DNA of 64,000 nucleotides from Tridacna crocea. Taxonomy: Eukaryota > Mollusca > Bivalvia > Cardiida > Cardiidae. Position numbers and translations under genes: made by a program. The notes under the pieces were generated by a model, which saw only the letters and a list, made by a program, of their open reading frames with translations, had not been told where the DNA came from and did no database searches. Of the stretch, positions 1 through 62,192 are shown piece by piece. Location: NCBI GenBank assembly GCA_943736015.1, contig OX031060.1:24195231-24259230 (forward strand), given 5' to 3'. Each line of letters begins with the position of its first letter. Positions within the stretch are counted from its first letter, which is position 1.

Positions 1-113
1 TGTGGGAAAAGGAGAAAATGCTGGTTACCAGCATTTTCTCCTTTTCCCATAGTGTTTTCAAAAGGCTTCTTTCTCAGGGGCGTCAAAAGTAGGGATTGTG
101 TGGTAATGGGATA
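1..113 (-). mobile_element. HpA MITE, cut by window start
   Basis: Palindrome at 2-50, then the flank with AAAGGCTTCTTTCTC and the end TGTGGTAATGGG followed by ATAA instead of TTAA. Confidence 0.85.
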
Positions 114-375
114 AGCCCCCTTTTATCAGAACGCGGCTCAAATAAATCAAGTAGACTGGCCAAAAGTGAATAGTTTTTTTTCTCATTCTAAATGTGCTCT
201 AATGAACACAATGGATCATGTAAAAGAGCATCAAAACAACAATGCCTCATCTTGCTTTCTAGCTATGCCTAACTTTTCTTGCCTCATATGATATTGAAGT
301 TGATATATTAACTAGCTTTTTATACTTAAATATGGAAATTAACAGAGAATCTGACAGAGAAACATTGGTAGACTA

Positions 376-595
376 TTAATCCTAAAAGTGCTGAGCGCGA
401 CCCCAAGGGCCTTTCGCGGACAGTGTAGACCAAAGATCAGACTGCACAGAACGTGCAGTCTGATCTTTGGTTTACACTGTCCGATAAAGAGATACTATTT
501 ACCTTTGAAAGATAATGCCTTTGAAACAGGAAAATTTGTGTTTTTACTATCGGCTTGAATGTTTCATTTCACTTATTTAGGAAGATAAGGGTTAA
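376..595 (+). mobile_element. HpB MITE, complete
   Basis: Type copy of HpB. TTAA at both ends (376-379, 592-595), a 5' part CTAAAAGTGCTGAGCGCGAC, then a palindrome at about 419-484 whose arms run from GGACAGTGTAGACC to GGTTTACACTGTCC around GCACAGAACGTGC. Length about 220 bp. Other copies vary the arms but keep CAGACTGCAC in the centre. No coding capacity. Confidence 0.8.
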
Positions 596-671
596 TGATA
601 GTAAAAAAAAAATCCATGGAAACTACAGAAACAAAGACATATAATACCAGTTACTGGTAGGCAAAATATTT

Positions 672-825
672 GGATGTGGATGTATTTACCATTCTAAATT
701 GCCCTCTTATTTTGATTCTCCAGAATTGTCTTATTTTTGAAAGTAACCCAATATCTGATTGGCTAAACCAAAAGGTTCAGCCAATCGGATATTGCATCAC
801 TGTCAAAATACTAAATTTTACAGCC
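672..825. mobile_element. PalE palindromic element, diverged
   Basis: Core CTGATTGGCTAAACC facing GGTTCAGCCAATCGG, with a weak GTATTTACCATTC left end. Confidence 0.6.
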
Positions 826-829
826 TAGA

Positions 830-1480
830 GATTGTAATAATGGATAAGATAAAGGAATTCTATATCTCATTTCCATTTGCCACATTTTTATGACTCCATT
901 TAATTCATTTTTTTTTTTACCAAACATTCCGGTATTTCATTTTTTGTTAACTATTTCTAATCTCAGAGGTTAGAATAAGCGTGTTTTGGTATACATATAC
1001 ATTGTATTTCATCAAAAAAGTTTTTGCAATTCTTATCAGATCTAATGTAAGGATTAAGTAGTCACGTCATATTAGAAATGAGAAAAAAAATGAAAAGAAA
1101 AAATATATTAAGGGCCATAACGCAGAGATATTTCAGAGTTAATTTCGCAGCTGTGATACATAGTTCGTTTGTAAGGCTGAAGTTTATCATATAACGTTTA
1201 TGCAGGGGGAAAAAAACAGACCCTGCCAAGAAACGAGACTTAACACCTGCATGTTTTGTGTATTTTTTTAACCACTGTAGTTACAAGGAAAATAGAAAAT
1301 GATTCCTTATCTAGATTTTAAGGAAAAAAAGAGGGGTGGGGGTCGCTTATCATTTATTGAAGATTGTCATAAAAAACAAAAAATAAACACTTAAGATTGT
1401 CACCTTTTTTTTTATCAACTCACTGCTTCCTGGAGCAATACAGGCTCCGTAAATGGGGGTTTAATGATCTGTAAAAAAGG
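830..1480. other. Non-coding stretch, nothing recognised
   Basis: AT-rich sequence with poly-A and poly-T runs; no ORF, tRNA or known repeat seen. Confidence 0.5.
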
Positions 1481-1484
1481 GTCT

Positions 1485-1943
1485 ACACAGGTCAGGCCGG
1501 CGAAAAGGTTTGCTTTTGGTGAATTTTCTGCCTATCAAAGGTCCATTCTACCTCATTATTCAGTCGATTGTTAGACAATATCAATTTTATAGATCCATAT
1601 TTGTGTGGCGACTTTCTGGCCGTAATGCATCACTGTGATGCTCCTTTGGCCAGAACATAAAACACATATTTTTCTTTTTCTTTTCTTTTTTAAATTTTAG
1701 CCCTGCTCTGGTTAAAGTGGGCTTAATACACATGTCTCCGTGTTTCATGATATAGGCCCAAGTCATCACATTATTATATATCCATAAGAGCAACTTTTTA
1801 AACAACCGACTGAATCAGGTGGTAGACTGGTCCTTTGACATACAGAAAATTGACCAATATCGAAAAGTTTCGGCCCAGGTCAGCCTGCGCAGACTGCGCA
1901 GGCTGACCTGGGTCGATACTTTTCGCAGTTGCATTAAGCCCCC
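1485..1943. mobile_element. HpC element(s) in inverted arrangement
   Basis: Forward HpC spans about 1717-1943, from GTGGGCTTAAT to GCATTAAGCCCCC, with a strong palindrome CAGGTCAGCCTGCGC/GCGCAGGCTGACCTG at about 1876-1912. A reverse partial HpC (GGTCCATTCTACCTC, AGTCGATTGTTAGAC) lies at about 1485-1615, so the interval forms a long imperfect inverted repeat. Confidence 0.7.
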
Positions 1944-2619
1944 GTTTCATAGAGCACATCTTATATCTAATTTCTTTTTAAACACATAAAACCAATTTAC
2001 TCACGTTGAAATCCTTTATCAAATTGTCTATTTTTATACCTGCTAAAACTTATATAAGTGACGCAAACAGGAAAAGAAAATGAATTTTTTAATGATTTAG
2101 AAACATTTTGGGAAAAGGACCAATTGCTAATTCAACAGCAATTTCTTTTTTTTGCCATACTGTTCTTAAAGAGCTAACTGAGCGTTAATAAAAAATCGAA
2201 TTAAAATATTTATTTTGATGAACTGGTGCAGAACAGAAATAATAATTCTCATTTTTATTTCGCCTTGTTTCCTTTTTGCACTCACTCAACGATACGATGA
2301 TATAAACAAATGTTTGGTTAATATCCTTCAATAAGCCTAAAATTAACTTACTGCGTGGTTTATTTACATAAAAAAAAAATGATTCCAAGATTACCATCCC
2401 CTTCGAGGCCAAATGTAACAATTTTTGTTACAGGAAAGAATTTCATAACTAGCGTGAGAAATTATTTAAATTTTAGCAAATATTATTTTTGTTTTGCAGT
2501 TATTTTTGTCTTAGTTTTGATGAATGAAAAAAGATTCTTTTCTTGAGGGAATTCTAGATATACCTTATTGACTGTTTAAAAAAAAGTTCAAAATACTAGT
2601 TGAAATAACGAACTAAGAG
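1944..2619. other. Non-coding stretch, nothing recognised
   Basis: AT-rich; the short frames on both strands are unconvincing as genes. Confidence 0.5.
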
Positions 2620-2801
2620 AATTCGTAATACACCAACCATTCTTTACACTATTCCTGGTGTTATTCTCTAGAGTTTTCTCAATTTCACAGTACATGTAAC
2701 ACAATTTCTGATTAGGGTTTAACAAATTATTAGTTGTGTTACTTTCCAAATTTAGAATTAGATCAAGAATGCTATTTAGAATGATTGGTGAACAAGGATC
2801 C
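2620..2801. mobile_element. PalE palindromic element
   Basis: Ends ACACCAACCATTCTT and AATGATTGGTGAAC face each other, with GTGTTACTTTCC on the right arm; the core is worn. Confidence 0.65.
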
Positions 2802-3690
2802 TACTTTTCTGGATTTTTTTCCATGTTGAATGAAGAATTTTACATTCACAAGAGAATTAACTAAGCTGACATACTATATTTGTAAGCAGTGAAAAACCAT
2901 ATTTCATATAATGTGTTTTTTTCCCGTCTTCTTTTGTAGGAGAAAGTTTTATTTTTGCCCTAAAAGTAAAAGAAAAGTCAACGTTTATGACTAGGCCTAT
3001 GTTGTAAACAGTTAAAAACTTTTGTTCTCAGATAATGAGAGGATTGTTCTACCTTTCTATATTACATTTGTAAATGGCTTGTAAGATGAAAGTGAATGTA
3101 AAATCAATCGAAACTTTGATAATATATGCAATTCAAATATATCTGCAGTTAAAGAAAAAAAAAAAGACATTAACAAGAACCACCTTGCATGTTGAAAAAA
3201 ATTATTAGTTGTATTGCTGCGGGAAGTACCTAGTAAATACAATTATGTATTCATCATATCATTAGTATTTTTCGTATCATTTTTAGTAAATCCAAATGCT
3301 TTTAAGATGCGAATGATTGCTTTGTTTCATTCTTGTTTGAATAATTGAGTTTTAACTGTCTTGAAAAAATCTTTTAACTACAGTTAAAGCTGCATGTTCC
3401 TTTTGATTGTTTGAGAAGGTAGTTATCGATGACAGATTCCCCAAATTATTTACAGTGGACCACGTAGAAAATGTCCATTTAGAATACGAATGACTGATCT
3501 TAGAAAAAAAAGGTTTAACATTTGTACTTGAATAAATGAGCATTCTTATATTTATATTTAGGCTAAAAGAGGAATTACTGTACATATTCATTGCAAGAAG
3601 TATTTCCTTAAGCAAGAATAGTTTTTCAATAGTGGTGGTTTGCAGGACAAAACAAAGCATATGCATGAAGTCATTCTCACCTACTGGTAG
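2802..3690. other. Non-coding stretch, nothing recognised
   Basis: AT-rich; a 104-codon minus-strand frame at 3352-3666 lacks any recognisable feature. Confidence 0.45.
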
Positions 3691-7845: not shown

Positions 7846-8369
7846 GAAATTGAACGAAGATACAGTCATTGAAAATAATATAATTTCATCGTGAAAGAAT
7901 AAACAATTGCTTGTCACAAGTAATTGCTCCTTACCCGCAATGTTTGCAAAATTTGTCTGCTGTAGATGCATTAACTATTTGAAATGTTTTCACGGAAGAA
8001 AGATTTAACGTGACAAAAGGAAACGTTCCTGTTTCTAGCATAATAAAAAAACAACCATTTATATTCAATCAATTTAATAATTTAACCATAAACTGCATTA
8101 TGTAAGATCGAGAATGCATAACGACATTTCAATAAAACTCACTCAGCCATACAAAATAAATAATGTAAGAAACACTTTTCAAGATGATTTTCTTCCCCTC
8201 TTTGGAAAACATTGTTTATTGCCTGTGCACCTATCAGACCATCACTATCGTTTCTTTTGCTGGTACTTTGCACAATATTTCCAAGCGATTTGTTCTGTCC
8301 TCATATACTAGTATACATCGTCGAGAGATGATAAATCCTTTTGCAATGGATATAAACAAGTTTGGTCTG

Positions 8370-8817
8370 GATTTCGAGCTTACGACATCAGGGTCCGTAT
8401 CCATCAATCATTCTTACCCCTTTACTACATAGATACTCATTTCTACGCATTGCTTGTAGGAGCCTTTGGAAAACATTGTGACAAAAAGTGAAATTGCTCG
8501 TCACGAGCAATTTCACCTTTTGCCACAATGTTTTCAACACTATCAATAGGTGTAATATACACGTAAGAAACGGCTTCATCCTTGCTGTTGTTTAGGGTCA
8601 ATTAGAGATACCATAGAAATGCCTTATGGGGTAAGGGGTTAAGAAAGTTCTTTGTCTTATTCTGCAAGAGTTTCTGACTGTGAGAGTAACCATGAGAATT
8701 TCTGATTCGCTAAACCAAATGGTTAAGCCAATCAGAAGTTCTGTGACTTTTACATTGACAAAATTCTGAAGAATAAGACTGAGAATGTTCTTAAGAACGG
8801 TAGGAGAATACGTACCC
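8370..8817. mobile_element. PalE element split by an HpA2 insertion
   Basis: The left piece GGGTCCGTATCCATC runs to ATTCTTAC (8417); the right piece resumes TTAAGAAAGTTCTTTG at 8639. Core AAACCAAATGGTTAAGCC. The right end GAACGGTAGGAGAATACG mirrors the left. The sequence just before it (GGATTTCGAG, TTACGACATCAG) recurs before the next PalE copy at 8868, so the two are a local duplication. Confidence 0.8.
8414..8642 (+). mobile_element. HpA2 MITE, complete, inside PalE
   Basis: Starts CCCTTTACTACATAG after TTAC, ends GGGGTAAGGGG before TTAA. The hairpin at about 8468-8534 has arms GTGACAAAAAGTGAAATTGC and GCAATTTCACCTTTTGCCAC around TCGTCACGA. Confidence 0.9.
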
Positions 8818-14690: not shown

Positions 14691-14745
14691 CTTATATATG
14701 ACTATATAGAGAATCTGCCTTTGTATTTACCGTGCAAACTATACT

Positions 14746-14974
14746 TTAACTCATTACCAAACAACAATATTTTAGACTGGTCCAAATTAAAAGCATTTGC
14801 AGACAACAAAATAAAAGTGACTGAAAATTTGAAATTTGTTTTGTGAAGGGTAGAAAACATTGTGGGAAAAGGAGAAAATGCTGGTTACCAGCATTTTCTC
14901 CTTTTCCCACAATGTTTTCTAAAGGCTTCTTTCTCAGGGTCATTAAAAGCAGGGATTGTGTGGTAATGGGTTAA
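14746..14974 (-). mobile_element. HpA MITE, complete reference copy
   Basis: 229 bp with TTAA at both ends, then CTCATTACCAAAC at the left and TGTGGTAATGGG at the right as terminal inverted repeats. The palindrome 14853-14919 has fully complementary 31-nt arms around GGTTACC. Flanks are not mirror images: one carries GCATTTGCAGAC, the other AAAGGCTTCTTTCTC. No ORF. TTAA plus CCC...GGG ends are those of piggyBac-type elements. Confidence 0.95.
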
Positions 14975-14979
14975 GACTT

Positions 14980-15239: not shown

Positions 15240-16305
15240 CTTCTTTTATTAATCCTGTAGCGAAAGAGTTAAAGATGAAATAAAAGAAATATTGCAATAA
15301 TGTCTTATTGAACTTGCAAGTCCAACAACTGTAAAATAATGAATGCACGAATTTCTTTTGAAGTATTTCTCACTTTATTGCGGCCATGAAGTCATAAAGA
15401 CTTCAATACGATTGCATCATCGAGAAAGCAACAATCTTTGTCAAAGTAATAGTGAGGAACTGGGCGGGAACAGTCTGCTATATTGCACAATAGATACGAT
15501 TTAGATTTAAGTTTTACCTCTTTGATATAGAACTTTCACCCTTTACTCCACAGTCCCTTGATTTTTTTTTTCCGATTGTGATGAAGGCTCTCGGAAACAA
15601 ACTCGGCCTATCCCGTACCTACATCTAATCTCGTTTGTTAAACGGTCGTTTCCATTTGAACTGCCATTCACGGGATCTTGCACATGGCGTTGCCACTGTC
15701 AGCCGTTTAGCAACAACACAAATCAAAATACTGATAGTACTGAAGGCCAGGAAATTGAGGATACGAAACAACACATGAGGTCAATTTTAATTAATACAAA
15801 CAGGTAGACGGACAGGGATACAAGCGGATTCCACTAAGCCCCTGGAATTCTTGGTTTTATCATGAAATTTTGAACTGATACTAGAAAGCACCAGCCAGAA
15901 ACTGATTAAGCCAGAGCTAGGCATGTGCTCACAGTTATGCGGTGCTTGATGATGACTTAGAATACTTAGTAATTTGTCGTGCTTGTAAACAATCCCAAGT
16001 CAAAATTGAACCGTATTCAATCGGTGCAATGCCAACTATGGTTATCTAAATTTTCTGAGACATGTGATGTCTTGTAGTCCTGAATGACGTTATTTTTTAC
16101 ATTTATGATGCAAGAACATATTTATTTTTGTTGATTTCAATGAAAATACATGTAAGATAGATATCAATGTAAAATGTGATGAATAATAAAGATTGGAGTG
16201 ATATAGCAGTTGGTCATGTCTCTACCTTCCACAAGTCGACGAAATTTTGAACTGGTATTATTTGAAGGAAGTTGTAGATAAAAATCCAAATTATATAGTT
16301 CTTCG
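15240..16305. other. Non-coding stretch, nothing recognised
   Basis: No convincing ORF or repeat seen. Confidence 0.45.
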
Positions 16306-16309
16306 TGTA

Positions 16310-16435
16310 TATTGAAAAGTAAGATTTTGGGGAAATTGGGAGGAATTGCTTGTTACAAGCGAATTCTCTTTTAGCCAAAATATTTTCTCAACAAAATACT
16401 GTGAAAAGGTTGGATTGTTTTGGGAAAATGATTAG
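16310..16435 (-). mobile_element. HpA fragment, worn
   Basis: GAATTGCTTGTTACAAGCGA hairpin centre with TATTTTCTCAACAAAATAC flank. Confidence 0.6.
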
Positions 16436-18438: not shown

Positions 18439-18624
18439 TTAACCCTTAGCAATATAATACCAACTATTAACGACCCTGGAAAAGAGTCTTTTGAAAACAT
18501 TGTGGGAAAAGGAGAAAATGCTGGTTACAAGCATTTTGAAAACATTTTTCCTTTTCCCACAATATTTTCAAAAGGCTTCTTCCTCCGTGGTGTTAAAAGT
18601 CGTCATTATGTGGTAAAGGGTTAA
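18439..18624. mobile_element. HpA variant, symmetric over its whole length
   Basis: TTAA at both ends. The left flank ACGACCCTGGAAAAGAG is mirrored by a right flank ending in GTGGTGTTAAAAGTCG, so this copy is built of one HpA half and its inverse; the normal second flank is absent. Confidence 0.8.
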
Positions 18625-18712
18625 AGGGTATGGTCTCATGGGACAAAGCGTTTGTTGCAACCGGTTGCGATAAAATTGCGACCATCTTCACAACGAAGAA
18701 TGTGCATTTATT

Positions 18713-18941
18713 TTAACCCTTTACCACATGACAAAATTTGAGACCCTTCTAAATTAAAAGCATTTGCAGATGACAGTTTCAATGTTGCTCAGATGGAGCA
18801 ATTTTTCTTTGATCAGGTAGAAAACATTGTGGGAAAAGGAGAAAATGCTGGTTACCAGCATTTTCTCCTTTTCCCACAATGTTTTCAAAAGGCTTCTTTC
18901 CTAGGGGTGTCAAAAGGCGGCACTGTGTGGTAAAGGGTTAA
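18713..18941 (-). mobile_element. HpA MITE, complete
   Basis: TTAACCCTTTACCAC to GTGTGGTAAAGGG then TTAA, perfect hairpin. The flank has GCTCAGATGG in place of the usual AAAGTGACTG. Confidence 0.93.
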
Positions 18942-19203
18942 AGGGAAGTCTGTAAAGCAATTGAAACATAATAGATTAAATAAAGGCCCGACCCCAACTG
19001 TTATAATAGATTTGACCCCTGTAACCCGGGACGATTTTTTAGCAGAGATAATACGGTGCACATTCCTTATTTATCTCGAACAAGTCTACGAGGTGAAAAA
19101 ATATTCGTTCTTTTTTTGACACCCAGCTTGCACAGATAAAATGCTAATCTTACCTCACGGCATGATAAAATGTTTCTCTTTATTAATCCTTATCTTACTA
19201 AAT

Positions 19204-19519: not shown

Positions 19520-19624
19520 TTAAACAGTGTAGATCAAAGATCAGACTGCACGTTTTGTGCAGTCCGATCTTGATCTACACTGTCCTCAAAAGGCTAGCGA
19601 GTCACGCTTAGCAGCCTAAAGGGT
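19520..19624 (-). mobile_element. HpB MITE, right part
   Basis: ACAGTGTAGATC hairpin with TTTTGTGC centre, then CGCTTAGCAGCCTAAAGGG and TTGA. Confidence 0.75.
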
Positions 19625-20773: not shown

Positions 20774-23700
20774 TTACACATTTGCATTCAACAATGACAA
20801 TCTTTGTTTTGTAGCACAGATAATAAAACGGGAAAGGTTTAATAAGATTCTTACATTACTTGAATTAAGTAGCTGTAACAGCTTAAACATATTCGGTCGA
20901 ACGCGGAAATATTTTCTTATGTAGTTTTTACGAAAGTCACTATATGCTGGACAAATTAAGATAAAATGGTACTCATCTTCAACCTCTCCAGAATTACATA
21001 CTGTACAAACTCTATCAGACCTTTCAATTCTTTGTCTACCATACCTGCCTGATTCAATACGTAAATTGTGGGAGGAAATTCGAATTTTTGTAAGCGCGCT
21101 CCTGTTTTGTTTAGTGCTTAAAATTCTAATATAATTTTCTAATCCCCAATTTGGCTTGATATACTGATAAAGAGACTTGAGAACCCGATTGTTTTCTATA
21201 TCCGATGACCATGTCTGTTTAAAGCAATCTAAAAGTCTTGTTTCAAATATAGAAATAAACCTAGTTTCATCAATGTTATTTTGGTAAAGCCAGTAGTCAG
21301 AAAAACCAAAGGTATCTAGTAGAGTCTTGACCTTGTTTGCCCAATTATTTTTTGAACCTGATTTACATCTTTCAAGAGAGTTTTGATAAATTCTTTTTAA
21401 GATGACATTATCAGTGTGAAGTAGTTTTAACCAATACTTAAGGATGAGAACATATCTTTTTATATATAACGGAAAACGCCCTAATTCACCATATATAGCT
21501 GCATTACTGGAATTCGATCTAACCCCAAGAATTTGCTTACTGAATTTTAGTTGCACGCGTTCTAGCTCCTTAGACTTTGAAAATCCCCAAATTGGACATC
21601 CAAAATTCAGAATCGAACCTACGAAAGCATCAAATAGTTGAAGAGATATCTCAGGACATAATTCAACTTTCTTAATGTTATACAATAAAATATTCATGGC
21701 TTTAAGAGATTTACCAATAATGTATTGATTATTTAAAACGAATGATCCAGTATAGTTGAAAACTGTACCCAAATAGTTTATATTGTCAACAACTTCAAGT
21801 TCTTGTCCATTGTAAAACCATTTCTCGGTCTGCAATATATGTCCTCTCTTACGAAAGACTACTATTTTAGTTTTGTCAATATTAACTTCTAAACCCCAAT
21901 ACTGACAGTACTCATGTAGCTGATTAAGGCTATTCTGAAGGTCCTCTACTGAGTTACCTACTACTACCATGTCGTCTGCAAAGAGCAATACAATAATACA
22001 AATATCGATTATACTAACTCCTGAATCCATTTGATTTTGCAGAAAGAGCTCCAAGTCCTCTAGGAAAAGTGCAAATAATACAGGCGAATTATTCAAACCC
22101 TGTTTTAATCCTACTGCTATATCAAAAAAGTCCGAAAGTGAGTTTAAGTGCTTTACGCATGATTTAACAGTTACATACATGGCTTTAAATATTCTAAGTA
22201 TTTTACCATCTAAACCCATTTTCAGCAGTTTAAACCATAAGGCGTTACGATACACTGAATCGAATGCTTTTTTAAGGTCTACAAAGGCACATGGAAAGCG
22301 CTTTTTATCATGCATAAAATGTTCAATTAAATTTTGTAAAATAAAACATGCGTCAACTGTGCTACGCCCTCTCCGGAACCCAAACTGAGCGTCAGATAGT
22401 AAATCATTGCTTTCGAACCATTTTTCCACTCTACTGGTCAGAATACTTGTAAATAGCTTTCCCAAATTACTCATAATGGTTATCCCTCTATAGTTGTTTG
22501 GCACAGATTTGTCACCTTTCTTATAGATTGGTATAATATAACCCTCTGACCATTTTTGTGGGAAACAACCTGAATCAAATACCATATTAAATAAGTCTGT
22601 TAAATGCCCCGTTAAAATATCGTCAGCTTCCAAAAAATATTCATTTATCAAATTGTCAGTCGGACAAGATGCCTTGTTGCGGTTTAATTTTCTGATTGCA
22701 GATTGCACTTCCTGGTAAGTTATCTTAGTATTTAATTCTGTAAATGTTGGATTCTCGATATTAAAGTCAGCAGACGATATATAACTTTCGACCTCCTCTA
22801 TAAGAGAGTTACCTATATTACTATAAACATCTGAAAAATGTTGCTTAAAGTCCTCGATATGAATAGGTGACGAAGAGACAAACTTGCTCTTACCGAAATG
22901 TTTCCAAAAGTCTCTAGGTCTATGTTTTTTTAACTCAGTAAGTTGCTGTGCTTTTTTCAACATAAACTCTCTTTTCTTTTTACGAATTAATGTTTTATAC
23001 TTTGTTTTAAACTCACATAACTGCAACCTATTTTCATAGGATTTACAACGATTAAACTCCCGTAAATACTGCTTGTATAAACTCTTTGCCTCATAACATT
23101 CTGTATCGAACCACTGACTTTCGGCATGGCGAGATCTCGTTTTGTTAAGTGATTTTCGCTTCATAAATAACGGGTCCGCGACTTCACAAATTTTGCTCGA
23201 AAAACTAGAGACCATACTTTCGATAGAGTGTGTATCACTCAAATTAACATTGTTTAAAATCTTATTAAAATCTGGCAATTTTCCTATCAAACGCCTTCTA
23301 AAAACATCTTTTTTATCCTGGTCCCATGAGTAAGTATAATATTCATCAGAAATATTCAATTCGATAGGTGTGTTCGGCAGGCTCTTTCCACCGAAAAGGT
23401 TAAAGCACAAACTTGCATGATCGCTATACATATTAAATGACCCAATCTGAAATGAAGTGACACGTGGAAAATCGTGTTCTCTCAGTAATAAATAATCAAT
23501 TGTGCTACACGCTTTTTTATTGAAATAAGTGAACTCGCCACGGTCAAAATCTATACCTAACCTGCCATTGGCTAAACGCAACGTGTTTGTTTTGCAAAAG
23601 TCTAACAAACGTATTCCTCTAGTATTTACTATCTTATCCTTGGAGGCCCGTGCTAAGGGTCTATCTGGAATGTAGTCTGTAAAATCAGTCTCACATGTAA

Positions 23701-24220
23701 ACCGATCACAGTCTATAAAATCTAACTTAGTTCCTACCCTACAATTCCAGTCGCCTGCCAATAATATACTTCCCAAATTTTCATAAGAAGCGATATCTTG
23801 TGATAACAAGTCAAATAAATCAACATCAACGGAGCTAGCTATCGGCGCATCTTCGGACCATAAATATAGCCCACATAAATAGATATCCTCTTGAAACCTG
23901 AAAAAATGTTTATCAAATTTCAACCATATTAAAGTGTCAAAATGATTTTTAACGACGGATATACCGTTTTTGATATTTTCCCTGATGTAAATTACTATAC
24001 CACCGCTGTTTCTTCTAGCCCTTTTGTGTCTAAATTTCCTGTAAAAGTTATAAACAAAAAACCCTTCTATCTCAATTTCTGAACTATTGTCTGTCCAAGA
24101 TTCTAAAAGAATGATTACATCGTTTTCACATAGATGAGATTTAAAGTCCGGGTCGGAAAGTTTCTGTTCAGTTAAACCATTGCAGTTCCAAACTATAACA
24201 CTTAGCCCATTCTCCGGCAA
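20774..24220 (-). CDS. LINE ORF2 protein: APE endonuclease plus reverse transcriptase
   Basis: 1148 codons open. The endonuclease is about residues 7-277: VIVWNCNG, ILLESWT (Glu), NSGGIVIYIR, LAGDWNCR (Asp/Asn), STIDYLLL and YSDHASLCF (Asp-His). The reverse transcriptase is about 500-800: NNYRGITIM, FGFRRGRSTVD, AFVDLKKAFDSV, VGLKQGLNNSPVLF and the catalytic LLFADDMVVV at about 745-754. A C-terminal CTVC with HFILIC gives a CCHC-like motif near residue 1080. This protein nicks the target and carries out target-primed reverse transcription. The frame begins TTG CCG GAG, directly after ORF1's TAG and one GAC codon; the first ATG is at residue 264, inside the endonuclease, so a normal AUG start would lose the N-terminal catalytic residues. 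Readthrough of the TAG, or reinitiation at a near-cognate codon, is inferred. No internal stops. Confidence 0.9.
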   Translation of the reverse strand: MPENGLSVIVWNCNGLTEQKLSDPDFKSHLCENDVIILLESWTDNSSEIEIEGFFVYNFYRKFRHKRARRNSGGIVIYIRENIKNGISVVKNHFDTLIWLKFDKHFFRFQEDIYLCGLYLWSEDAPIASSVDVDLFDLLSQDIASYENLGSILLAGDWNCRVGTKLDFIDCDRFTCETDFTDYIPDRPLARASKDKIVNTRGIRLLDFCKTNTLRLANGRLGIDFDRGEFTYFNKKACSTIDYLLLREHDFPRVTSFQIGSFNMYSDHASLCFNLFGGKSLPNTPIELNISDEYYTYSWDQDKKDVFRRRLIGKLPDFNKILNNVNLSDTHSIESMVSSFSSKICEVADPLFMKRKSLNKTRSRHAESQWFDTECYEAKSLYKQYLREFNRCKSYENRLQLCEFKTKYKTLIRKKKREFMLKKAQQLTELKKHRPRDFWKHFGKSKFVSSSPIHIEDFKQHFSDVYSNIGNSLIEEVESYISSADFNIENPTFTELNTKITYQEVQSAIRKLNRNKASCPTDNLINEYFLEADDILTGHLTDLFNMVFDSGCFPQKWSEGYIIPIYKKGDKSVPNNYRGITIMSNLGKLFTSILTSRVEKWFESNDLLSDAQFGFRRGRSTVDACFILQNLIEHFMHDKKRFPCAFVDLKKAFDSVYRNALWFKLLKMGLDGKILRIFKAMYVTVKSCVKHLNSLSDFFDIAVGLKQGLNNSPVLFALFLEDLELFLQNQMDSGVSIIDICIIVLLFADDMVVVGNSVEDLQNSLNQLHEYCQYWGLEVNIDKTKIVVFRKRGHILQTEKWFYNGQELEVVDNINYLGTVFNYTGSFVLNNQYIIGKSLKAMNILLYNIKKVELCPEISLQLFDAFVGSILNFGCPIWGFSKSKELERVQLKFSKQILGVRSNSSNAAIYGELGRFPLYIKRYVLILKYWLKLLHTDNVILKRIYQNSLERCKSGSKNNWANKVKTLLDTFGFSDYWLYQNNIDETRFISIFETRLLDCFKQTWSSDIENNRVLKSLYQYIKPNWGLENYIRILSTKQNRSALTKIRISSHNLRIESGRYGRQRIERSDRVCTVCNSGEVEDEYHFILICPAYSDFRKNYIRKYFRVRPNMFKLLQLLNSSNVRILLNLSRFIICATKQRLSLLNANV

Positions 24221-29440: not shown

Positions 29441-29445
29441 GATAC

Positions 29446-29674
29446 TTAACCCTTTCCCAAACAATCCCTGGCTTTTACGGGTCTAGAATAGTAGCCTTTT
29501 GAAAACATTGTGGGAAAAGGAGAAAATGCTGGTAACCAGCATTTTCTCCTTTTCCCACAATGTTTTCTACCCTATCATAGACAGAAATCATCTTTTCAGC
29601 AAGAGTTGAATTGCCGTCTGCAAATGCTTTCAATTTGGTCTAGTCCAAAAGTTTGTTTTTTGGGAAAGGGTTAA
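29446..29674 (+). mobile_element. HpA MITE, complete
   Basis: TTAA ends, perfect hairpin around GGTAACC, GCAAATGCTTTCAATTTGG flank. Confidence 0.95.
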
Positions 29675-29799
29675 ACAAAAATTAAAAGAAAGCATCAGCC
29701 CGAACTTTAGTCACTTATCCTGGTATAAAAAAATCAAATGAACCTTTTAAGGACGACATTAAAAACCACGTTTGTTTCTATTTCAAGGGTTTTGTTTCT

Positions 29800-33194: not shown

Positions 33195-33310
33195 CCTTTA
33201 ACTCTTTCCATACCAAAGACAACATCAGAAGCTTCTGTGGACAGTGTATATCAAGATCAGACTGCACAGAACGTGCAGTTTGATCTCTGATCTGCGCTGT
33301 CCACTGCTTT
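33195..33310 (+). mobile_element. HpB MITE, 5' part and hairpin
   Basis: TTTAACTCTTTCCATACC, GTGGACAGTGTATATCAAG, perfect GCACAGAACGTGC centre, GCGCTGTCCAC. Confidence 0.8.
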
Positions 33311-33384
33311 ATTCTAGATTATGAACGAACTGTCTCTTGATCATCTAGCAGAGCTGTATTTAAAGACTGAGAAATTCGATTTAT

Positions 33385-33613
33385 TTATCCCTTTACCCCA
33401 TAAGGCATTTCTATGGTATGTCTAATTGACCCTTAATAACAGCCAGGATGAAGCCGTTTCTTATGTGTAAATGACACCTTTTGATAGCATAGAAAACATT
33501 GTGGCAAAAGGTGAAATTGCTCGTCACGAGCAATTTCACCTTTTGCCACAATGTTTTCCAAAGGCTCCTACAAGCAATGTGTAGAAATGAGTATCTATGG
33601 AGTAAAGGGTTAT
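33385..33613 (-). mobile_element. HpA2 MITE, complete, flanked by TTAT
   Basis: TTAT on both sides, CCCTTTACCCCATA and TATGGAGTAAAGGG as ends. The palindrome 33492-33558 is perfect around TCGTCACGA. The duplicated TTAT suggests a non-canonical target. Confidence 0.93.
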
Positions 33614-33768
33614 TCACTAGTGAAAGAGTTAAAACACCATGTTATCCTTAGGTTGCTGAGAAGGATTTTGGTTGTGGACAGTGAGTATCAAGTAATGAGG
33701 TGTGGTCCTGAATCTACAATGTTTGAGACCATATCCTACGACGTGAGTGGTGCTCTTGCAAAGAAGGT

Positions 33769-35096: not shown

Positions 35097-35542
35097 TAGG
35101 GGGCTTAACCCATTACCACACAATCCCTACTTTTGACGCCCCTGAGAAAGAAGCCTTTTGAAAACACTATGGGAAAAGGAGAAAATGCTGGTAACCAGCA
35201 TTTTCTCCTTTTCCCACAGTGTTTTCAACCCCTCCCAGAACAAATTTCAATTTTTCAGTCACCTTTATCTTGTCGTCTGCAAATGCTTTTAATTTGGACC
35301 AGTCTAAAATTTTCTCGTGTGGTAAAGAGTTAATTCATGATCCAAGATACCAAGTAAGTCATGGCATAATTTTGTATCTATAAAATTTATTTTATCTAAC
35401 AAGCGACTAAATCACGAGGTACACAGGTCATTTTCCATCTAAAAAAATCGACCAAAAACCAAAAATATCGACTCAGGTAAGTCTGCGCGGACTGCCCAGT
35501 CTGATCTGGTCGATACTTTTTTACAGGAGCATTAAACCCCCT
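35097..35542 (+). mobile_element. HpC element interrupted by HpA at its terminal TTAA
   Basis: GGGGGCTTAA (35099-35108) is the HpC start; after the HpA insertion it resumes TTAATTCATGATCCAAG (35330) and ends GCATTAAACCCCC. The hairpin near 35478-35515 is worn. Confidence 0.8.
35105..35333 (+). mobile_element. HpA MITE, complete, inside HpC
   Basis: 229 bp between duplicated TTAA. CCCATTACCACAC to GTGTGGTAAAGAG, hairpin around GGTAACC. Very similar to the copies at 45812 and 61846, hence recent. Confidence 0.95.
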
Positions 35543-37889: not shown

Positions 37890-40800
37890 TATGTTTAGTT
37901 TAAACATATTTTATTCAATATAATTACAGATATTATTCATGTACAACAACATATTGCGAATAGGATTAGAACGAAAGCATCAAAGCTTATATAGTTCCTC
38001 TCCCTAAAGAAAATCACGTGGTATAACAATTACAGTAATCAAAAATAAATAGAGACACCAAAATAATGAACTGACAGTGAAAAATTTAAAGAGTAACGGT
38101 GAAAAACGAGGAATAATGTAAAAAAAAAATCAGAGGTTGTGCAGAGTTAAGAAAGAAGATGTAAAATTAACTTTTATAGGCCTCGTGTATGTGTGTGTCT
38201 GATGCAGTACAGTATCCAAAGAAAGGTACCATACACTAGTAACGTTAAATTTAGCTTAAAACTCAGGAGAATCTACCGCTATTCTCAATAAAAGCATGGA
38301 CTGCATTAAAGATTATTTCATTTTCAGCAAGGGAGAGATTATTATCTCCAAAAAGGACAACGTCAATATTATAATCAGATATTTCACAAATACATCGTCT
38401 GAATGCTGTCCTAATATTACGATAAAATTTGCAAACAAAGAAGTAGTGTTTATTGGATTCTATTTCCCCGCAACGACATAAAGGGTTTTCTACAATATTT
38501 TTCCAAAATAAGTGTTGCTTTAAATCACTACATTTATTCCTAAGGCGAGCATGTAAAATCTGCAGTCTTCTTTCTCCATAAAAAAATAGTTTGTTGGGAA
38601 TTGGCTTATCTTCATCTAATATACGTTTAAAAGATGAGAGGGAGTCTGTCTCCCTTGTAGACTGTGGCAAAGAGTTCCATGCCTCTATGGTAGAAGGGAG
38701 AAAAGATTTCATATATAGATTAGTTTTGCAGGCGATGTTTGATAAATCATTAGAATTACGAAGATTGTATGTAGTATTACTGCCAACAGTGGTCGGTACT
38801 AGAGAACATAAGTAATTTGGAACTAACCCATTTACCATTTTGAAAAGAAGAATAAGCTTGTGTTTGTTCCTACGCTGTCTTAATGTTTCCCAGCCTGATT
38901 CTCTTATAAGGTCTGCAATTGATACAAGCTTAGTACATCCCGTTACAATCCTGGCAGCCTCGTTTTGAATCTTGTCAAGTTCTTCCTTTTGGTATTCATG
39001 AACATTATCCCAAATAATATCTCCATATTCAAGAATTGGTCTTATAAATGAAAAATATATGGTTTGAAGTGAAAGGCGATCGAGCTGGTACCTCAAACTT
39101 CTTAAAACACCTATTCTTTTCCATGCCTTTTCAACGGTACACTGCACTTGTTGATCCCAGTTTCCATCACAAGATAGATAAATACCAAGGTGTTTGTGAG
39201 ACTGTACTAATGGGATAACAACATCTGACATAGAAAGATCCGGATGAACAGGTTTGATTCGTTTGCGAGATATTAGCAAAGATTTAGATTTAGAGGGATT
39301 GAATTTAACCAACCATCTGTCTGCCCAACTGCTAACCTTATCTATGTCTGACTGTAAAATAGCACCAGATATATCTGGAGTATCAACTACTAAAGAAAGA
39401 CTTGTGTCATCGGCAAACAAATTGATACCGGATTCAATATCGTGAACAATATCATTGATATATACCAAAAATAGCAATGGACCTAATACTGAACCCTGTG
39501 GGACTCCCGCTTTTACAAATGATAAATCGGAAGAACCTCCAGGAAGAACGACTTTTTGAGTTCTGTTAGTCAGATAGTCCTGCAAAAATGATAAAACTTT
39601 ACCATCTATTCCTGCAGCATGTAATTTGAAGATCAGACCCTTGTGCCACACCTTGTCAAATGCTTTACTAATGTCGAAGAAAACCATCCTTATTTCAAAG
39701 CCATTATCTAAGGCGCTACAGATTTTATTGTACAAATATGTCAATTGGTTGACAGTAGAGTCACCAGGGAGGAAACCGGACTGATGTGGTGTAAAAAAAT
39801 TTGTCTCTTTTAGGTGATTAAAAATATGCTTGTAAATTATTCTTTCAAGTACTTTCTCCATTGTGTTTAGGAGTGATACAGGTCTATAATTAGATACAAT
39901 AGAAGGATCACCGCTCTTTAAAATAGGACACACGAGAGATGTTTTCCAGGTAGTGGGAAGGACACACTTGTCGAGACAAAGATTAAATAATCGACAAAGT
40001 GGAGTTGAAATCTGAAGTGCTGATTCCAGTAACATTTTGTTATTAATACCATCTGGACCTGATGCTTTCCCAATATGAAGAGTTTTTAATACATCGAAAA
40101 CCTCATTTGGGGTGATGACTATACTGTTAAGCTTCTCACCAACAAATTGCTGGTAATCACTCGGAAGAGAGTTTAAAGAGTCGTCAATCATAGACTGACT
40201 GGAGAAAAACGAATTCAAAACATTTGCTTTTTCATTATCATCCACTGCAAATCTGTCGGTACTGGAATCAAAAATGGGTGGCAGTGTTGATGGTGAGCTT
40301 GAAGTCGGGCATATAAACGACTTTAAAATTTTCCACCAGTCACGTGGATTTAAGTTACCAGATTTAAGTTTTAGTGCCATTCGATCAAAGTAATCTTTTT
40401 TCGCAAATCGAATACTAGAAATTACTTCATTTCTTAATCGTTTAAATTTCAGCCAGTGCTGATCAGAGTTGGTCCTTTTTGCTCTTTGATAATATCTTTT
40501 TCGTTTGCGTATTTTTCTTTTGATTTCTAATGTTATCCAAGGCGGATCGTGAGGATTTATAGTGACAGTTTTATTAGGAATTGATTGAGATGCTTTTTCA
40601 ATTAAGACATTCGAAATATTCTGCGCGTATATATTTTCATCATCATTATAAGCAGTATCCCATTCTACCTCGGATAAACTTTTCCTTAACTGAAAATAAT
40701 CGCCGCTATCATATTTCCAAATTCTTCGTTTAAATGACTTATATCTGGGTTTTAAAAAATTGAAAACGCCAAAGATGGGACAATGATAACGGACATTTAA

Positions 40801-41800
40801 ATCAAGACAGGGTTCCCCTACTCCTGAAGTTAGAATTGATTCTTTGTTCTTCACGAAAAGAAGATCTATGACTGACATTGAGTTTTCAGTAAAATGAGTT
40901 GGCTCCTCAATGCACTGAGTAAGATTGAACTGTTTACAGATCGAGTCTGTTTTTCTGAAATGTGATTGATCCATTGTGTTTAAATTGAAATCACCCATTA
41001 TGATAATGTCAGTGATATTCGTGTCAACTGCAAGAGCGATAGAGTCCTCAATTAGAGAAGTATACATTACATTTGAATTGGGTGGTCGATAAAAGACACC
41101 ATAGAGAACATTCCTACTATTACTTAGTTTTATTTCTATCCAAAGGCATTCTAATCTATTAGGTTCTAAATCATATCTACGCTTGTAAACAATTGGATCT
41201 TTAACATATAGAATCACACCACCATACCTGTCCCCAATTCTATCTTTACGTTCAGGTGGGTGAAAAGTAGGGAAGAGAAGATCATTAGATGCGTAGTTAC
41301 TATGTAACCATGTTTCTGTAAAGGACAGCACGTCAAAGTAAGAGAATTCCGAAACCAAGAGATCTACCTTATTTGTGATACTCTGTACATTATAATGAAC
41401 AATAGACAAATGATTTGGGAGACTCAGGAAATCGTACAAATCATTGGTGCAGAATGAGGCTGATGAAGTTTCAGAGTGAGGACCAGGATTCAGATGAACG
41501 TCACCGGACAAAAACAACAAAAATATCAACACAGTTAAAAGATATGCAATATCAACAAATACAAAACTCCTCAAAAGGAAAAGAGAGAATGTAACATTTT
41601 GAGAATGATTCTGGTTAGGAGGTGCTGTCCTTTTATCACGATTTTCAATTAACCTAAACATAGTCGATGAATGCCTGAAATTCCAGTGCACAGAAAAAAG
41701 ATACAAGGGAAACAACTGTACTGCACACAATAGTACAAAAGTTATACTGAGACAGAAAGGAAAGTTCGGACGATATGTCGGCTTAGCACTTTCTATAAAA
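37890..41800 (-). mobile_element. LINE-2 of window: CR1/L2-group non-LTR retrotransposon with 2A-like leader
   Basis: Minus-strand LINE with one long intact ORF, about 370 nt of 3' UTR, and an end near 37890 where the minus strand reads TTGAATAAAATATG and then TTTAAACTAAACAT, giving an AATAAA next to a simple tail. The upstream limit is not defined. No separate ORF1 is seen between the ORF and the VNTR at 42.2-42.9 kb. The intact 1132-codon frame points to a recent insertion. An HpA copy (37635-37863) lies about 30 bp beyond the 3' end. Confidence 0.85.
38263..41661 (-). CDS. CR1/L2-type LINE polyprotein: 2A-like leader, APE endonuclease, reverse transcriptase
   Basis: 1132 residues from ATG (MFRLIENRDK); the frame stays open 23 codons upstream but without ATG. 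Residues about 25-52 are strongly hydrophobic (FLLRSFVFVDIAYLL and following) and run into GDVHLNPGP at about 53-61, a 2A-like motif with His where the consensus has Glu. The endonuclease follows from about residue 85: IVHYNVQS, SFTETWL, YGGVILYV, IIMGDFNLN, VIDLLF and RYHCPIF, the last in place of the usual SDH motif. The reverse transcriptase is in the middle: NYRPVSLLNTMEKV, FFDISKAFDKVW, AGVPQGSVLGPLLF, LFADDTSLSL. The C-terminus has LCRCGE with HYFFVC, a CCHC-like motif. Functions are target nicking and target-primed reverse transcription; a working 2A would release a short hydrophobic leader peptide. Confidence 0.9.
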   Translation of the reverse strand: MFRLIENRDKRTAPPNQNHSQNVTFSLFLLRSFVFVDIAYLLTVLIFLLFLSGDVHLNPGPHSETSSASFCTNDLYDFLSLPNHLSIVHYNVQSITNKVDLLVSEFSYFDVLSFTETWLHSNYASNDLLFPTFHPPERKDRIGDRYGGVILYVKDPIVYKRRYDLEPNRLECLWIEIKLSNSRNVLYGVFYRPPNSNVMYTSLIEDSIALAVDTNITDIIIMGDFNLNTMDQSHFRKTDSICKQFNLTQCIEEPTHFTENSMSVIDLLFVKNKESILTSGVGEPCLDLNVRYHCPIFGVFNFLKPRYKSFKRRIWKYDSGDYFQLRKSLSEVEWDTAYNDDENIYAQNISNVLIEKASQSIPNKTVTINPHDPPWITLEIKRKIRKRKRYYQRAKRTNSDQHWLKFKRLRNEVISSIRFAKKDYFDRMALKLKSGNLNPRDWWKILKSFICPTSSSPSTLPPIFDSSTDRFAVDDNEKANVLNSFFSSQSMIDDSLNSLPSDYQQFVGEKLNSIVITPNEVFDVLKTLHIGKASGPDGINNKMLLESALQISTPLCRLFNLCLDKCVLPTTWKTSLVCPILKSGDPSIVSNYRPVSLLNTMEKVLERIIYKHIFNHLKETNFFTPHQSGFLPGDSTVNQLTYLYNKICSALDNGFEIRMVFFDISKAFDKVWHKGLIFKLHAAGIDGKVLSFLQDYLTNRTQKVVLPGGSSDLSFVKAGVPQGSVLGPLLFLVYINDIVHDIESGINLFADDTSLSLVVDTPDISGAILQSDIDKVSSWADRWLVKFNPSKSKSLLISRKRIKPVHPDLSMSDVVIPLVQSHKHLGIYLSCDGNWDQQVQCTVEKAWKRIGVLRSLRYQLDRLSLQTIYFSFIRPILEYGDIIWDNVHEYQKEELDKIQNEAARIVTGCTKLVSIADLIRESGWETLRQRRNKHKLILLFKMVNGLVPNYLCSLVPTTVGSNTTYNLRNSNDLSNIACKTNLYMKSFLPSTIEAWNSLPQSTRETDSLSSFKRILDEDKPIPNKLFFYGERRLQILHARLRNKCSDLKQHLFWKNIVENPLCRCGEIESNKHYFFVCKFYRNIRTAFRRCICEISDYNIDVVLFGDNNLSLAENEIIFNAVHAFIENSGRFS

Positions 41801-44829: not shown

Positions 44830-45000
44830 CTTAACGCCTAGGCTGCTAAGCACGACCCACTGACCTTTGGCGGACAGTGTAGATTCAAGATCAGACTGCA
44901 CAGAACGTGCAGTCTGATCTTGGAAAAGATAACTTTGGAAAAACAATATTTGGTGTTGTTTTTTTTAATCGTTTCAATTATTTAGTTTGATAAGAGTTAG
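44830..45000 (+). mobile_element. HpB MITE, near complete
   Basis: TTAACGCCTAGGCTGCTAAG start, hairpin CAAGATCAGACTGCACAG/GTGCAGTCTGATCTTG, ATTATTTAGTTTG near the end. Confidence 0.82.
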
Positions 45001-47070: not shown

Positions 47071-47381
47071 TCCTACTAGATCGATTTACATAATCATCAC
47101 AGCTAAAGATCTATGTCAACCTCAATATCTGTATAAGCAATTTTATCTATGTTCAGCGTTATAGAAGAGTGTTCAAAGACCAAGCAAGTGTTTCGGTATT
47201 TGGTTGTATATACATGCTGGGAGGTTTTAAATAATTATTTATCATTTATCGATTTATTCATTCATTTATGGTATAAATTATCCGTAGAAGAGTAATAACT
47301 TAAAACGAAATATTGTCCCTTCATATTGTTGAAAATGCTACGGAGTGGTGGTGTCAGTATTATACCAAATATGATGTGTTT

Positions 47382-47580
47382 TAACGACCATAGGGTAAAT
47401 GACTTTCGAAAACATTGTGGGAAAAGTAGAAATTGCTTGAAACCGGCATTTTCTCCTTTTTCAACAATGCTTTCTGCAATTTCAAAAACAACGTCCGATA
47501 TTTGAGCCACATTCAACCTGTGGTCTGTAAATGCTTTCAAGTTGACCAAGTCTGAAATTCTGTCGTTAGGTACACTATAA
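47382..47580 (+). mobile_element. HpA MITE, diverged
   Basis: TTTTAACGACCATAGGG, worn hairpin with GAAACCGGCA, TAAATGCTTTCAAGTTG. Confidence 0.75.
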
Positions 47581-49343: not shown

Positions 49344-49445
49344 TAAAGTGCCGTCTCGGATTAGCCTGCGCAGTCCGCGCAGGCTAATCCGAGACGGCAC
49401 TTTAGGCAAACGTCTGAATGGCCTTTTTCGCGTGCTGCAGGGCCT
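49344..49445. mobile_element. HpD half element with perfect hairpin
   Basis: Palindrome 49344-49404: AAAGTGCCGTCTCGG and GGATTAGCCTGCGC, loop AGTCC, exact complement. It continues to GGCCTTTTTCGCGTGC, the outer end of HpD. Confidence 0.88.
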
Positions 49446-52277: not shown

Positions 52278-52449
52278 TACGACAAAACCTAAGACACATT
52301 TACGTAGAAAGTTTTTGCAGACAGCTCGTAAATATTCATGGGTAGAAAGATTGTATTTGTCGATAAATGAATGGAAAATATTGTGGGAAAAGGAGAAAAT
52401 GCTATGACTTGTTTTTTTTTTGTCCTTTTTTCACAAAATGCTTAGTTAA
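52278..52449 (-). mobile_element. HpA copy, diverged, abutting HpA2
   Basis: CTAAGACACATTTACG, GTTTTTGCAGACAGC, left hairpin arm good, right arm decayed. Confidence 0.65.
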
Positions 52450-52669
52450 CCCTTTACTCCATAGATACTCATTTCTACGCATTACTTGTAGGAGCCTTTG
52501 GAAAACATTGTGGCAAAAGGTGAAATTGCTCGTGACGAGCAATTTCACCTTTTGTCACAATGTTTTCTATGTTATCAAAAGGTATCATATACACGTAAGA
52601 AACAGCTTCACCCTTGCTGTTATTTGGGGTCAATTAGAGATACCTTAGAAATGCTTTATGAGGTTTTAA
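52446..52669 (+). mobile_element. HpA2 MITE, complete
   Basis: TTAACCCTTTACTCC to TTATGAGG then TTTTAA. Hairpin around TCGTGACGA with one arm mismatch. Confidence 0.92.
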
Positions 52670-52817
52670 AACTCTCGATTCTTCCTCCTAGAAACTATAC
52701 ACAAGTACTTGCGCCGAACGTATGGGCCAGTGAACGGTACCAAATTTTAAAGGTGACAATATTTTTCTGAAGCCGTCATATATAGGACTGTTAAATCAAG
52801 GGTTTACATGATAGTTG

Positions 52818-53015
52818 GGTCTGCAACACGCGAAAAGGGCCTTCGGACATCTGCGTAAAGTGTCGTCTCGGATCAGCCTGCGCAGTCCGCGCAGGCTAAT
52901 CCGAGACGGCATTTTACGTCAACATTAGATTTTGTTCCATATCAGACTGCATGAAATAGAAAATCACATACGATCGGAAAGTGTCGTCTCTTATAAGCCT
53001 GGGCAGATTGCACAG
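52818..53015. mobile_element. HpD element, right end cut by HpA
   Basis: GGTCTGCAACACGCG start, first hairpin 52855-52918, second hairpin start CGGAAAGTGTCGTCTC at 52976, broken where the next HpA begins. Confidence 0.82.
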
Positions 53016-54744: not shown

Positions 54745-54856
54745 TTTAACCCATTCACCCTGATAGGCAAAAACAGACGCCTTTGCTGACGGCACAGATC
54801 AAGATCAGACTGGACAGAACGTGCAGTCTGATCTCGAATCTATAATGTCCGCTTGC
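54745..54856 (+). mobile_element. HpB MITE, 5' part and hairpin
   Basis: TTAACCCATTCACCC start, GACGGCACAGATC, hairpin CAAGATCAGACTGG/GTGCAGTCTGATCTCG; HpA begins directly after. Confidence 0.8.
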
Positions 54857-55085
54857 TTAACTCATTACCAAACGACAAGATTTTAGACTGGTTCAAATCG
54901 AAAGCATTTTGCAGACGACAAAATAAAGGTGACTGAAAATTGAAATTTGCTCTGGGAAGGGTAGAAAACAGTGTGGGGAAAGGAGAAAATGCTGGTTACC
55001 AGCATTTTCTCCTTTTCCTACAGTGTTTTCAAAAGGCTTCTTTCTCAGGAGCGTCAAAAGTAGGGATTGTGTGGTAATGGGTTAA
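54857..55085 (-). mobile_element. HpA MITE, complete
   Basis: TTAA ends; CTCATTACCAAACG and TGTGGTAATGGG; hairpin nearly perfect (GTGTGGGGAAAGG). Confidence 0.93.
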
Positions 55086-55089
55086 TTAA

Positions 55090-61520: not shown

Positions 61521-61845
61521 TGCGGGTATAAGGGAATCTTCCGCACAAAAAACAAATTTTCTGTATTCAAAATACATCAGTGTATGTCAAAAATTGACAA
61601 TCTAGAGTGAATAAAGCCTTACAAGGTTTAAATATTGTTAAGTAAACATTGATAACAGATATTTATTTTGATGAATTTATTTCAATTTTCGTAGTGTGTT
61701 TTTTTCATTGGTATAACATTTGTTGATTGATTTAAACAGACAGCTCGCCATAATAACTTCACTATATGACTTTCGCAATCCCCTGGCCTGGGATTCATTC
61801 GAAATTTAACCTTAACAGGGGCTGTTCAAATATTTATGATTTCAT

Positions 61846-62061
61846 TTAACCCATTACCACACAATCCCTACTTTTGACGCCCCTGAGAAAGAGGCCTTTT
61901 GAAAACACTGTGGGAAAAGGAGAAAATGCTGGTAACCAGCATTTTCTCCTTTTCCCACAGTGTTTTCTACCCTTCCCAGAACAAATTTCAATTTTTCAGT
62001 CATCTTTATTTTGTCGTCTGCAAAGGCTTTCGATTTGGACCAGTCTAAAATTTTCTCGTGC
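61846..62061 (+). mobile_element. HpA MITE, young, right end missing
   Basis: TTAACCCATTACCACAC start; hairpin nearly perfect; sequence stops matching after AAATTTTCTCGTG, before the terminal repeat. Confidence 0.92.
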
Positions 62062-62192
62062 TGACAAAATATGATTCATCACTGAATTAGGCAAAGCGAC
62101 AAGTAGCAAATCATCAATAAGAATAAGAGACAGAATAAGAGGAGAATATTTTTCAATGGTATTCCCCATATGGAGTACGTAGCCTCTCATAT

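Follow-up and report, generated by a model that had tools for sequence, protein, structure and literature searches.

The giant clam Tridacna crocea carries three sister families of a piggyBac-like TTAA MITE, HpA, HpA3 and HpA2, each organised around a near-perfect DNA palindrome of 67 bases. Changes that separate the families are paired between the two arms of the palindrome, whereas decay within individual copies affects one arm at a time. The explanation favoured here, to which we give slightly better than even credence, is that rare template switching makes paired variants and that, as we infer, lineages with near-perfect hairpins amplify. Evidence was drawn from a 64,000-nucleotide stretch of one contig (the window) and from wider searches of the genome.

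The element and its palindrome

The HpA2 MITE at the centre of the analysis (Table 1) is flanked by a TTAT target-site duplication at 33385-33388 and 33610-33613, and its terminal inverted repeats (TIRs), CCCTTTACYCCATA, are imperfect. The initial annotation had located HpA2 hairpins at 8414, 33385 and 52446; three HpA2 elements do lie there, and the positions prove to be the first bases of their target-site duplications, not of the hairpins. Elements of this kind measure ~230 bp and have the end type TTAA-CCCTTTACC. Among HpA copies with both flanks, the TTAA duplication is found on the left in 70 of 88, on the right in 69 of 88 and on both sides in 55 of 88. Over the first 20 bases, TTAA included, the TIRs match at 16/20 positions in the HpA consensus and at 17/20 in that of HpA2. 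Features expected of a piggyBac-like MITE are thus present, namely a TTAA duplication, TIRs starting with CCY and a non-coding body of ~230 bp in many copies; the right end of HpA reads CTC, not CCC.

Table 1. Positions of HpA and HpA2 hairpins, elements and relics in the window
Feature	Coordinates	Strand	Remarks
HpA2 hairpin	33492..33558	-	Perfect palindrome, 33-base arms, 1 centre base; orientation from flanks
HpA2 MITE containing hairpin 33492-33558	33385..33613	-	Element 33389-33609; profile match 33379-33617
HpA2 hairpin, two one-arm changes (p13, p19), centre C for G	8469..8535	+	Element about 8414-8640
HpA2 hairpin, single one-arm change (p13)	52501..52567	+	Element about 52446-52670, right end decayed
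HpA MITE, perfect HpA hairpin at 14853-14919	14743..14976	-	Consensus and profile match
HpA MITE, perfect HpA hairpin at 18820-18886	18710..18943	-	Consensus and profile match
HpA MITE, perfect HpA hairpin at 29501-29567	29444..29678	+	Consensus and profile match
HpA MITE, p8 C-G subfamily, hairpin 61901-61967 otherwise perfect	61844..62074	+	
HpA MITE near p8 subfamily, same-base C.C mismatch at p8 (hairpin 54965)	54853..55087	-	
HpA MITE, paired p8 and unpaired p10 in common with copy 1-117; different insertion site	35101..35337	+	
HpA relic, older; T.T mismatch at p26, T.C at p31	47374..47572	+	

Two old relics of the window, at 16224-16422 and 7887-7951, have T-A at p26 and again at p31, which may represent an older, fourth state of the hairpin. 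The minus strand also holds two L1-like ORFs (20774-24220 and 38263-41730), each ~1,150 aa long and encoding reverse transcriptase and endonuclease domains; other long ORFs in the window are few. A chance origin of the hairpin was considered and ruled out by the perfect palindrome, by the count of AAAACATTGTGG with at most one mismatch (47 in the window against 1.01 expected) and by the fold statistic given below.

The transposase family DDE_Tnp_1_7 has 118 matches in the genome. At one of these 118 loci, where two short flanking stretches were compared, no autonomous partner with HpA ends was found; the likely element end in its flank, TTAACCCTTTATATACGAG, has only its tip in common with HpA. 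From C18:30428321 onwards (L065), a likely piggyBac-type element end with a transposase ORF adjoins an HpA-like relic. The right flank of HpA contains a second conserved block, TGTCGTCTGCAAATGCTTTC, which lies outside the hairpin and the TIRs (conservation 0.88 to 0.90 in 105 copies). The hairpin pattern had no match in viral contig and genome contig collections.

Abundance and sampling

The genome searched comprises 1,048,827,098 bases (1.05 Gb) in 31 contigs and contains 183,553 exact instances of the 31-base HpA core with centre A, 22,218 of the 24-base HpA3 arm and 20,311 of the 33-base HpA2 arm. For closer study, the window was combined with 20 stretches of 10 kb taken at regular spacing on three contigs. 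These 264 kb hold 275 related loci, 162 of them with a near-complete hairpin and flanks; reducing the tandem arrays L007 and L019 to one copy each left 152 copies. The two arrays (C1 near 25.0 Mb and C3 near 18.0 Mb) have a unit of ~1.67 kb, each with a truncated HpA-type element, and Rfam gave no match in bases 1-3400 of the L007 array. Conservation, flank-clustering and arm-spectrum counts refer to the 105 of 140 HpA-model copies with enough flank. In a 355 kb set, which includes 30 loci (L021-L050) chosen for carrying HpA2, some of them overlapping, 160 of the 202 long near-palindromes are of HpA type.

Whole-pair differences between families

Consensus hairpins were derived from 19 of the 24 window arm pairs (16 HpA and 3 HpA2), with orientation taken from the flanks; the five arm pairs of other length (18494, 33809, 43844, 50582 and 53065) are omitted from this set. 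HpA and HpA2 differ at p14 (G-C/C-G), p21 (A-T/T-A), p26 (A-T/T-A), p31 (G-C/C-G) and the centre (A/G), with no other differences. The initial claim that the sister hairpins are separated by four paired arm differences, all of them flips, is therefore borne out, with the centre as an additional difference. Only one other change is common to more than two of the 19 copies, a T-A to C-G pair at p8 in 3 copies (hairpin 61901-61967 and copies 35161 and 45868); the remaining changes affect one arm each. In 152 copies, the single-arm changes comprise 338 transitions, 152 flips and 129 others. Against this spectrum, four flips of four have p 0.004; if the p8 transition is counted as well, four of five have p 0.015. 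This all-flip pattern is unusual, and the favoured model offers no explanation for it. According to the available text of PMC8604942, template switching favoured transversions in bacteria, not in that study's own yeast data.

An alternative raised in the initial annotation is selection on an RNA stem, in a transcript or a small-RNA precursor, with which the very stable single-strand fold of the hairpin (DNA parameters, z -11.6) would agree. The fit is otherwise poor, as none of the three family consensus hairpins contains a G.T wobble pair and the four differences are flips, not the GC-AU exchange that makes up 61% of instantaneous compensatory rRNA changes in the accessible part of PMC8794818. 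A single tRNA, moreover, is the sole Rfam match in the window. We regard an RNA stem as highly improbable.

Two further palindromic repeats were encountered. One, with core AGCCTGCGCAG (window 1861-1925, 49344-49404 and 52854-52918; also L004, L013, L018, L020 and L029), forms two subfamilies whose differences are largely paired and mostly transitions; among 8 copies compared pairwise, and hence non-independently, paired differences comprise 73 transitions, 15 flips and 18 others, and some unpaired states are shared. The other, older repeat has the core GATCAGACTGCACAGAACGTGCAGTCTGATC and occurs at 411-489, 19521-19591, 44865-44923 and 33234-33303 in the window and in other places; some of its copies seem to lie near TTAACCC-like sequence.

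Single-arm decay within families

Within families, single-arm change prevails. Copies with at most five changes from the nearest family consensus (101) carry 193 single-arm changes and 5 paired ones (1.1 paired expected), those with 6 to 9 changes (25) carry 155 and 8 (3.0 expected), and 26 older copies carry 271 and 26 (13.1 expected). Among 30 distinct copies of HpA2, 38 changes are unpaired and 2 are paired.

Changes that are paired between families and unpaired in copies would also follow from selection alone, if dyad symmetry or a cruciform were needed for mobilisation and a lineage with a mismatch stalled until a second mutation re-paired it, without any arm copying. That the hairpin is the best-conserved part of the element agrees with this account, as does the binding of palindromic subterminal DNA by two C-terminal domains of piggyBac-type transposases, reported in the available portion of PMC11707139. 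Selection alone, however, predicts neither the centre flips nor the excess of paired single-site variants in otherwise resident-looking copies that are described below, and it would favour transitions, whereas the four family differences are flips (p 0.004). We consider it unlikely, though it deserves more weight than any of the other rivals.

Flank distances (nearest-neighbour) reveal clustering of paired states at p8 (p<0.0005), p31 (0.019) and p26 (0.021); paired p10 does not cluster by flank, and among unpaired states 4 of 51 cluster at p<0.03. Copies 1-117 and 35161 have an unpaired p10 in common. Their right outside flanks differ, which rejects a single duplicated locus, so either the imperfect hairpin moved or the change recurred. 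This common unpaired state and the 4 of 51 clustered ones suggest that hairpin perfection is not strictly needed for multiplication.

HpA3 and mixed-arm hairpins

HpA3 displays G-C at p14, A-T at p21, T-A at p26 and C-G at p31, that is, two of the four flips, with centre A; seven copies were sampled, two with one decayed base. Its flanks are HpA-like in L009, L001, L006 and L014 and lean towards HpA2 in L020:4269 and L015:2. The flanks of L020:4269 resemble those of HpA (z 3.4 and 5.4) as well as those of HpA2 (z 4.1 and 4.0), and those of L015:2 are clear only against the left flank of HpA2 (z 5.2). Compared directly, the flanks of HpA and HpA2 are barely more alike than shuffled sequence (z 2.9 left and 1.0 right; distances 0.352 and 0.373 versus 0.376 and 0.377 shuffled). 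An unrelated origin of the HpA and HpA2 hairpins is ruled out via HpA3. With two flips, and with both HpA-like and HpA2-leaning flanks, HpA3 makes the flips look stepwise and not the product of one four-mismatch ancestor. The order of HpA, HpA3 and HpA2 is unrooted, and HpA3 may have arisen by recombination between HpA and HpA2, though it has A and not G at its centre. The hairpin at C1:2431906 has the p14 flip on an HpA3 background, and in an old copy within L039 p14 is flipped and p21 is not.

These observations bear on the earlier proposal that same-base mismatches in an imperfect ancestral hairpin were corrected in opposite directions in two lineages. The family relation, established through HpA3, and the footprints of arm copying (centre flips and paired single-site variants) speak for it in outline. 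In its strict form, in which a four-mismatch ancestor was corrected left to right in one lineage and right to left in the other, it agrees with all four differences being flips and with relics that have T.T or A.A at p26 and A.A at p21. HpA3 has two flips only, however, p14 is flipped without p21, mixed-arm hairpins number 11, and old relics with T-A at p31 present a third state. A search for mismatched ancestral intermediates among 26 window relics showed no clear excess of same-base mismatches at the four sites (11/92 cells versus 60/689 elsewhere), although paired alternative states are enriched there (8/92 versus 17/689 cells). The relic table omits rows r2097+, r7887+, r12852+, r36396- and r55944-. 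A strict four-mismatch ancestor thus appears very unlikely.

Hairpins with opposite-type arms, recognised by same-base mismatches at p26 and p31, amount to 11 genome-wide, and by reading, four of the 11 (L054, L056, L058 and L060) are flanked by sequence from two different families or in two orientations. All 11 were inspected, and the others consist of an other-family arm in an HpA or HpA3 element. Such structures could reflect ectopic gene conversion or recombination among hairpin copies, which might move arms, centres and whole hairpins, and so give a frozen appearance and mixed states, without intra-hairpin template switching; the p31-only and p26-only hairpins described below could likewise be short HpA/HpA3 conversion tracts. 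As the main explanation this process seems improbable to us. Private paired changes at p7, p9 and p12 have no known donor family, and in the closest pairs (flank distance 0.04-0.08) the mean hairpin distance of 0.045 is not far below the flank mean of 0.067, which argues that conversion of resident copies is not frequent. In L058, L060 and perhaps window 18494-18568, left-type flanks stand on both sides, as if two copies had recombined head-to-head at the palindrome.

Centre flips and paired single-site variants

Under the favoured model, one arm would now and then be re-synthesised from the other by quasipalindrome template switching, an event that could invert the centre and make a mutation on one arm paired. 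The centre base was compared with the arms. With the left flank fixed, the HpA centre is A at 26,823, T at 2,801 and G at 832 places in the genome (these three bases counted); because only the left flank is fixed, the counts may include some head-to-head recombinants. Arm A/T sites in the sample show 71 transitions, 41 flips and 35 others, and the ratio of flips to transitions is 2,801:832 at the centre versus 41:71 at these sites (Fisher p 3e-19). Sampled copies with both flanks aligned have 90 A, 9 T, 4 G and 1 C centres and one gap (9/14 flips, p 0.005), and the HpA2 centre is G in 22, C in 6 and A in 2 copies (6/8 flips, p 0.0002). T-centre copies show no clustering by flank (p 0.26). Assembly or polishing error at palindrome centres may be a source of this centre signal.

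Paired variants confined to one site were also sought. T occurs at p26 of the left arm at 940 places in the genome. Of the first 100, classed by eye, 80 are T.T, 4 are paired at this site alone, 11 have a right arm of HpA3 or HpA2 type, 4 have an A opposite at p31 and 1 is T.C. C occurs at p31 of the left arm at 413 places; of the first 100, again by eye, 75 are C.C, 6 are paired at this site alone, 9 have the HpA3 or HpA2 state of p26 on their right arm, 6 are C.A and 4 C.T. Extrapolated from the 4 and 6 cases among these first 100 (intervals 1 to 10% and 2 to 13%), paired-only hairpins would number ~38 at p26 and ~25 at p31, whereas double hits would be expected to give 3.1 and 0.5; the estimates are thus 12 and 47 times the chance level. 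Per one-arm flip, the paired-only rate is 2.5% (p26) and 4% (p31); the centre-inversion rate would predict about 2.6% paired, given two assumed factors of one half. Two of three p26-only loci inspected are near-duplicates 19 kb apart, so there are fewer independent events than counted, and part of the paired excess may stem from ectopic conversion between families, for which the p31-only and p26-only hairpins are the easiest cases.

The centre is inverted in 4/13 copies with private paired changes versus 11/115 without (one-sided p 0.047). Arms with p14 alone flipped occur 2,329 times; the first 100 comprise 79 on an HpA background, 20 on an HpA3 background (one adjacent pair) and 1 other, and the 79 HpA-background arms listed of the 2,329 include no adjacent p14-only pair. 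The signature of template-switch products, both arms matched together with spacer inversion, is thus seen as a statistical excess across copies.

Conservation of the hairpin sequence

Conservation in 105 HpA copies is 0.94/0.93 in the arms, 0.88/0.86 in the TIR regions and 0.78/0.79 in the interior. Among eleven copies whose 67-base hairpins are identical, the flanks are 25.5% apart on average (range 8 to 36%), and at a flank distance of 0.26 the hairpin distance is 0.084. The means of the closest pairs given above suggest that decay after insertion is roughly even and that the source lineages preserved the hairpin. Arm copying should in theory keep the arms alike without slowing their change; it cannot by itself freeze a sequence, and sequence constraint or hairpin exchange between elements would also be needed.

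The favoured model has a second step, in which the elements that amplify would be those with near-perfect hairpins of conserved sequence, so that mainly paired changes become family-diagnostic. For the element, the hairpin may bind the transposase or a host factor, form a cruciform or act in some other way. Against the model stand the rarity of paired changes in copies, the restriction of the family differences to flips and the imperfect hairpins that seem to have multiplied. Taken further, the data may depict a mobile palindrome that evolves by base pairs, with germline hairpin-templated copying pairing a few per cent of one-arm mutations, amplification sorting intact hairpins and the families arising stepwise (HpA, HpA3, HpA2). 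We offer this fuller picture tentatively, at somewhat less than even confidence.

Relation to known systems and significance

As far as the available texts go, the nearest described elements are the CMITEs of Acropora corals (PMC2872659), and the nearest described process is arm homogenisation with spacer inversion (PMC8604942, PMC8794818). CMITEs are likewise piggyBac-like MITEs with TTAA duplications and CCC ends, and their internal region is likewise more conserved between families than the TIRs. They differ in measuring ~100 bp and in having another internal sequence (compared by eye with a 60-base consensus), whereas the elements described here are ~230 bp long with a conserved 67-base palindrome; the accessible part of PMC2872659 describes no paired arm evolution. 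In template-switch homogenisation of inverted repeats, as presented in the available portions of PMC8604942, PMC8794818 and PMC3820800, one arm likewise templates the other, with paired changes and spacer or loop inversion. Those portions treat yeast genes, RNA genes and reporters, whereas the present case concerns a high-copy mobile element with inversion of a one-base centre and a presumed amplification filter. The subterminal repeats of piggyBac and piggyBat (PMC11707139, in its available text) are also palindromic DNA near TTAA transposon ends; these palindromes are 19-bp or short and imperfect and are bound by transposase, whereas the 67-base hairpin is a candidate binding site. Among the publications listed in searches of the open-licence literature, none treats paired changes in MITE palindromes by its listing.

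Whether the matched arms of long stems reflect compensatory selection or template switching is disputed, and HpA could offer a setting largely free of RNA-gene selection. The palindrome exists in very many copies, inversions are registered by its centre base and one-sided and paired changes by its arms, so that the contributions of arm copying, of inversion and of ectopic conversion could be separated in one animal genome. If the fuller picture is true, the HpA families would serve as a natural assay for template switching, and its rates could be read from >100,000 copies.
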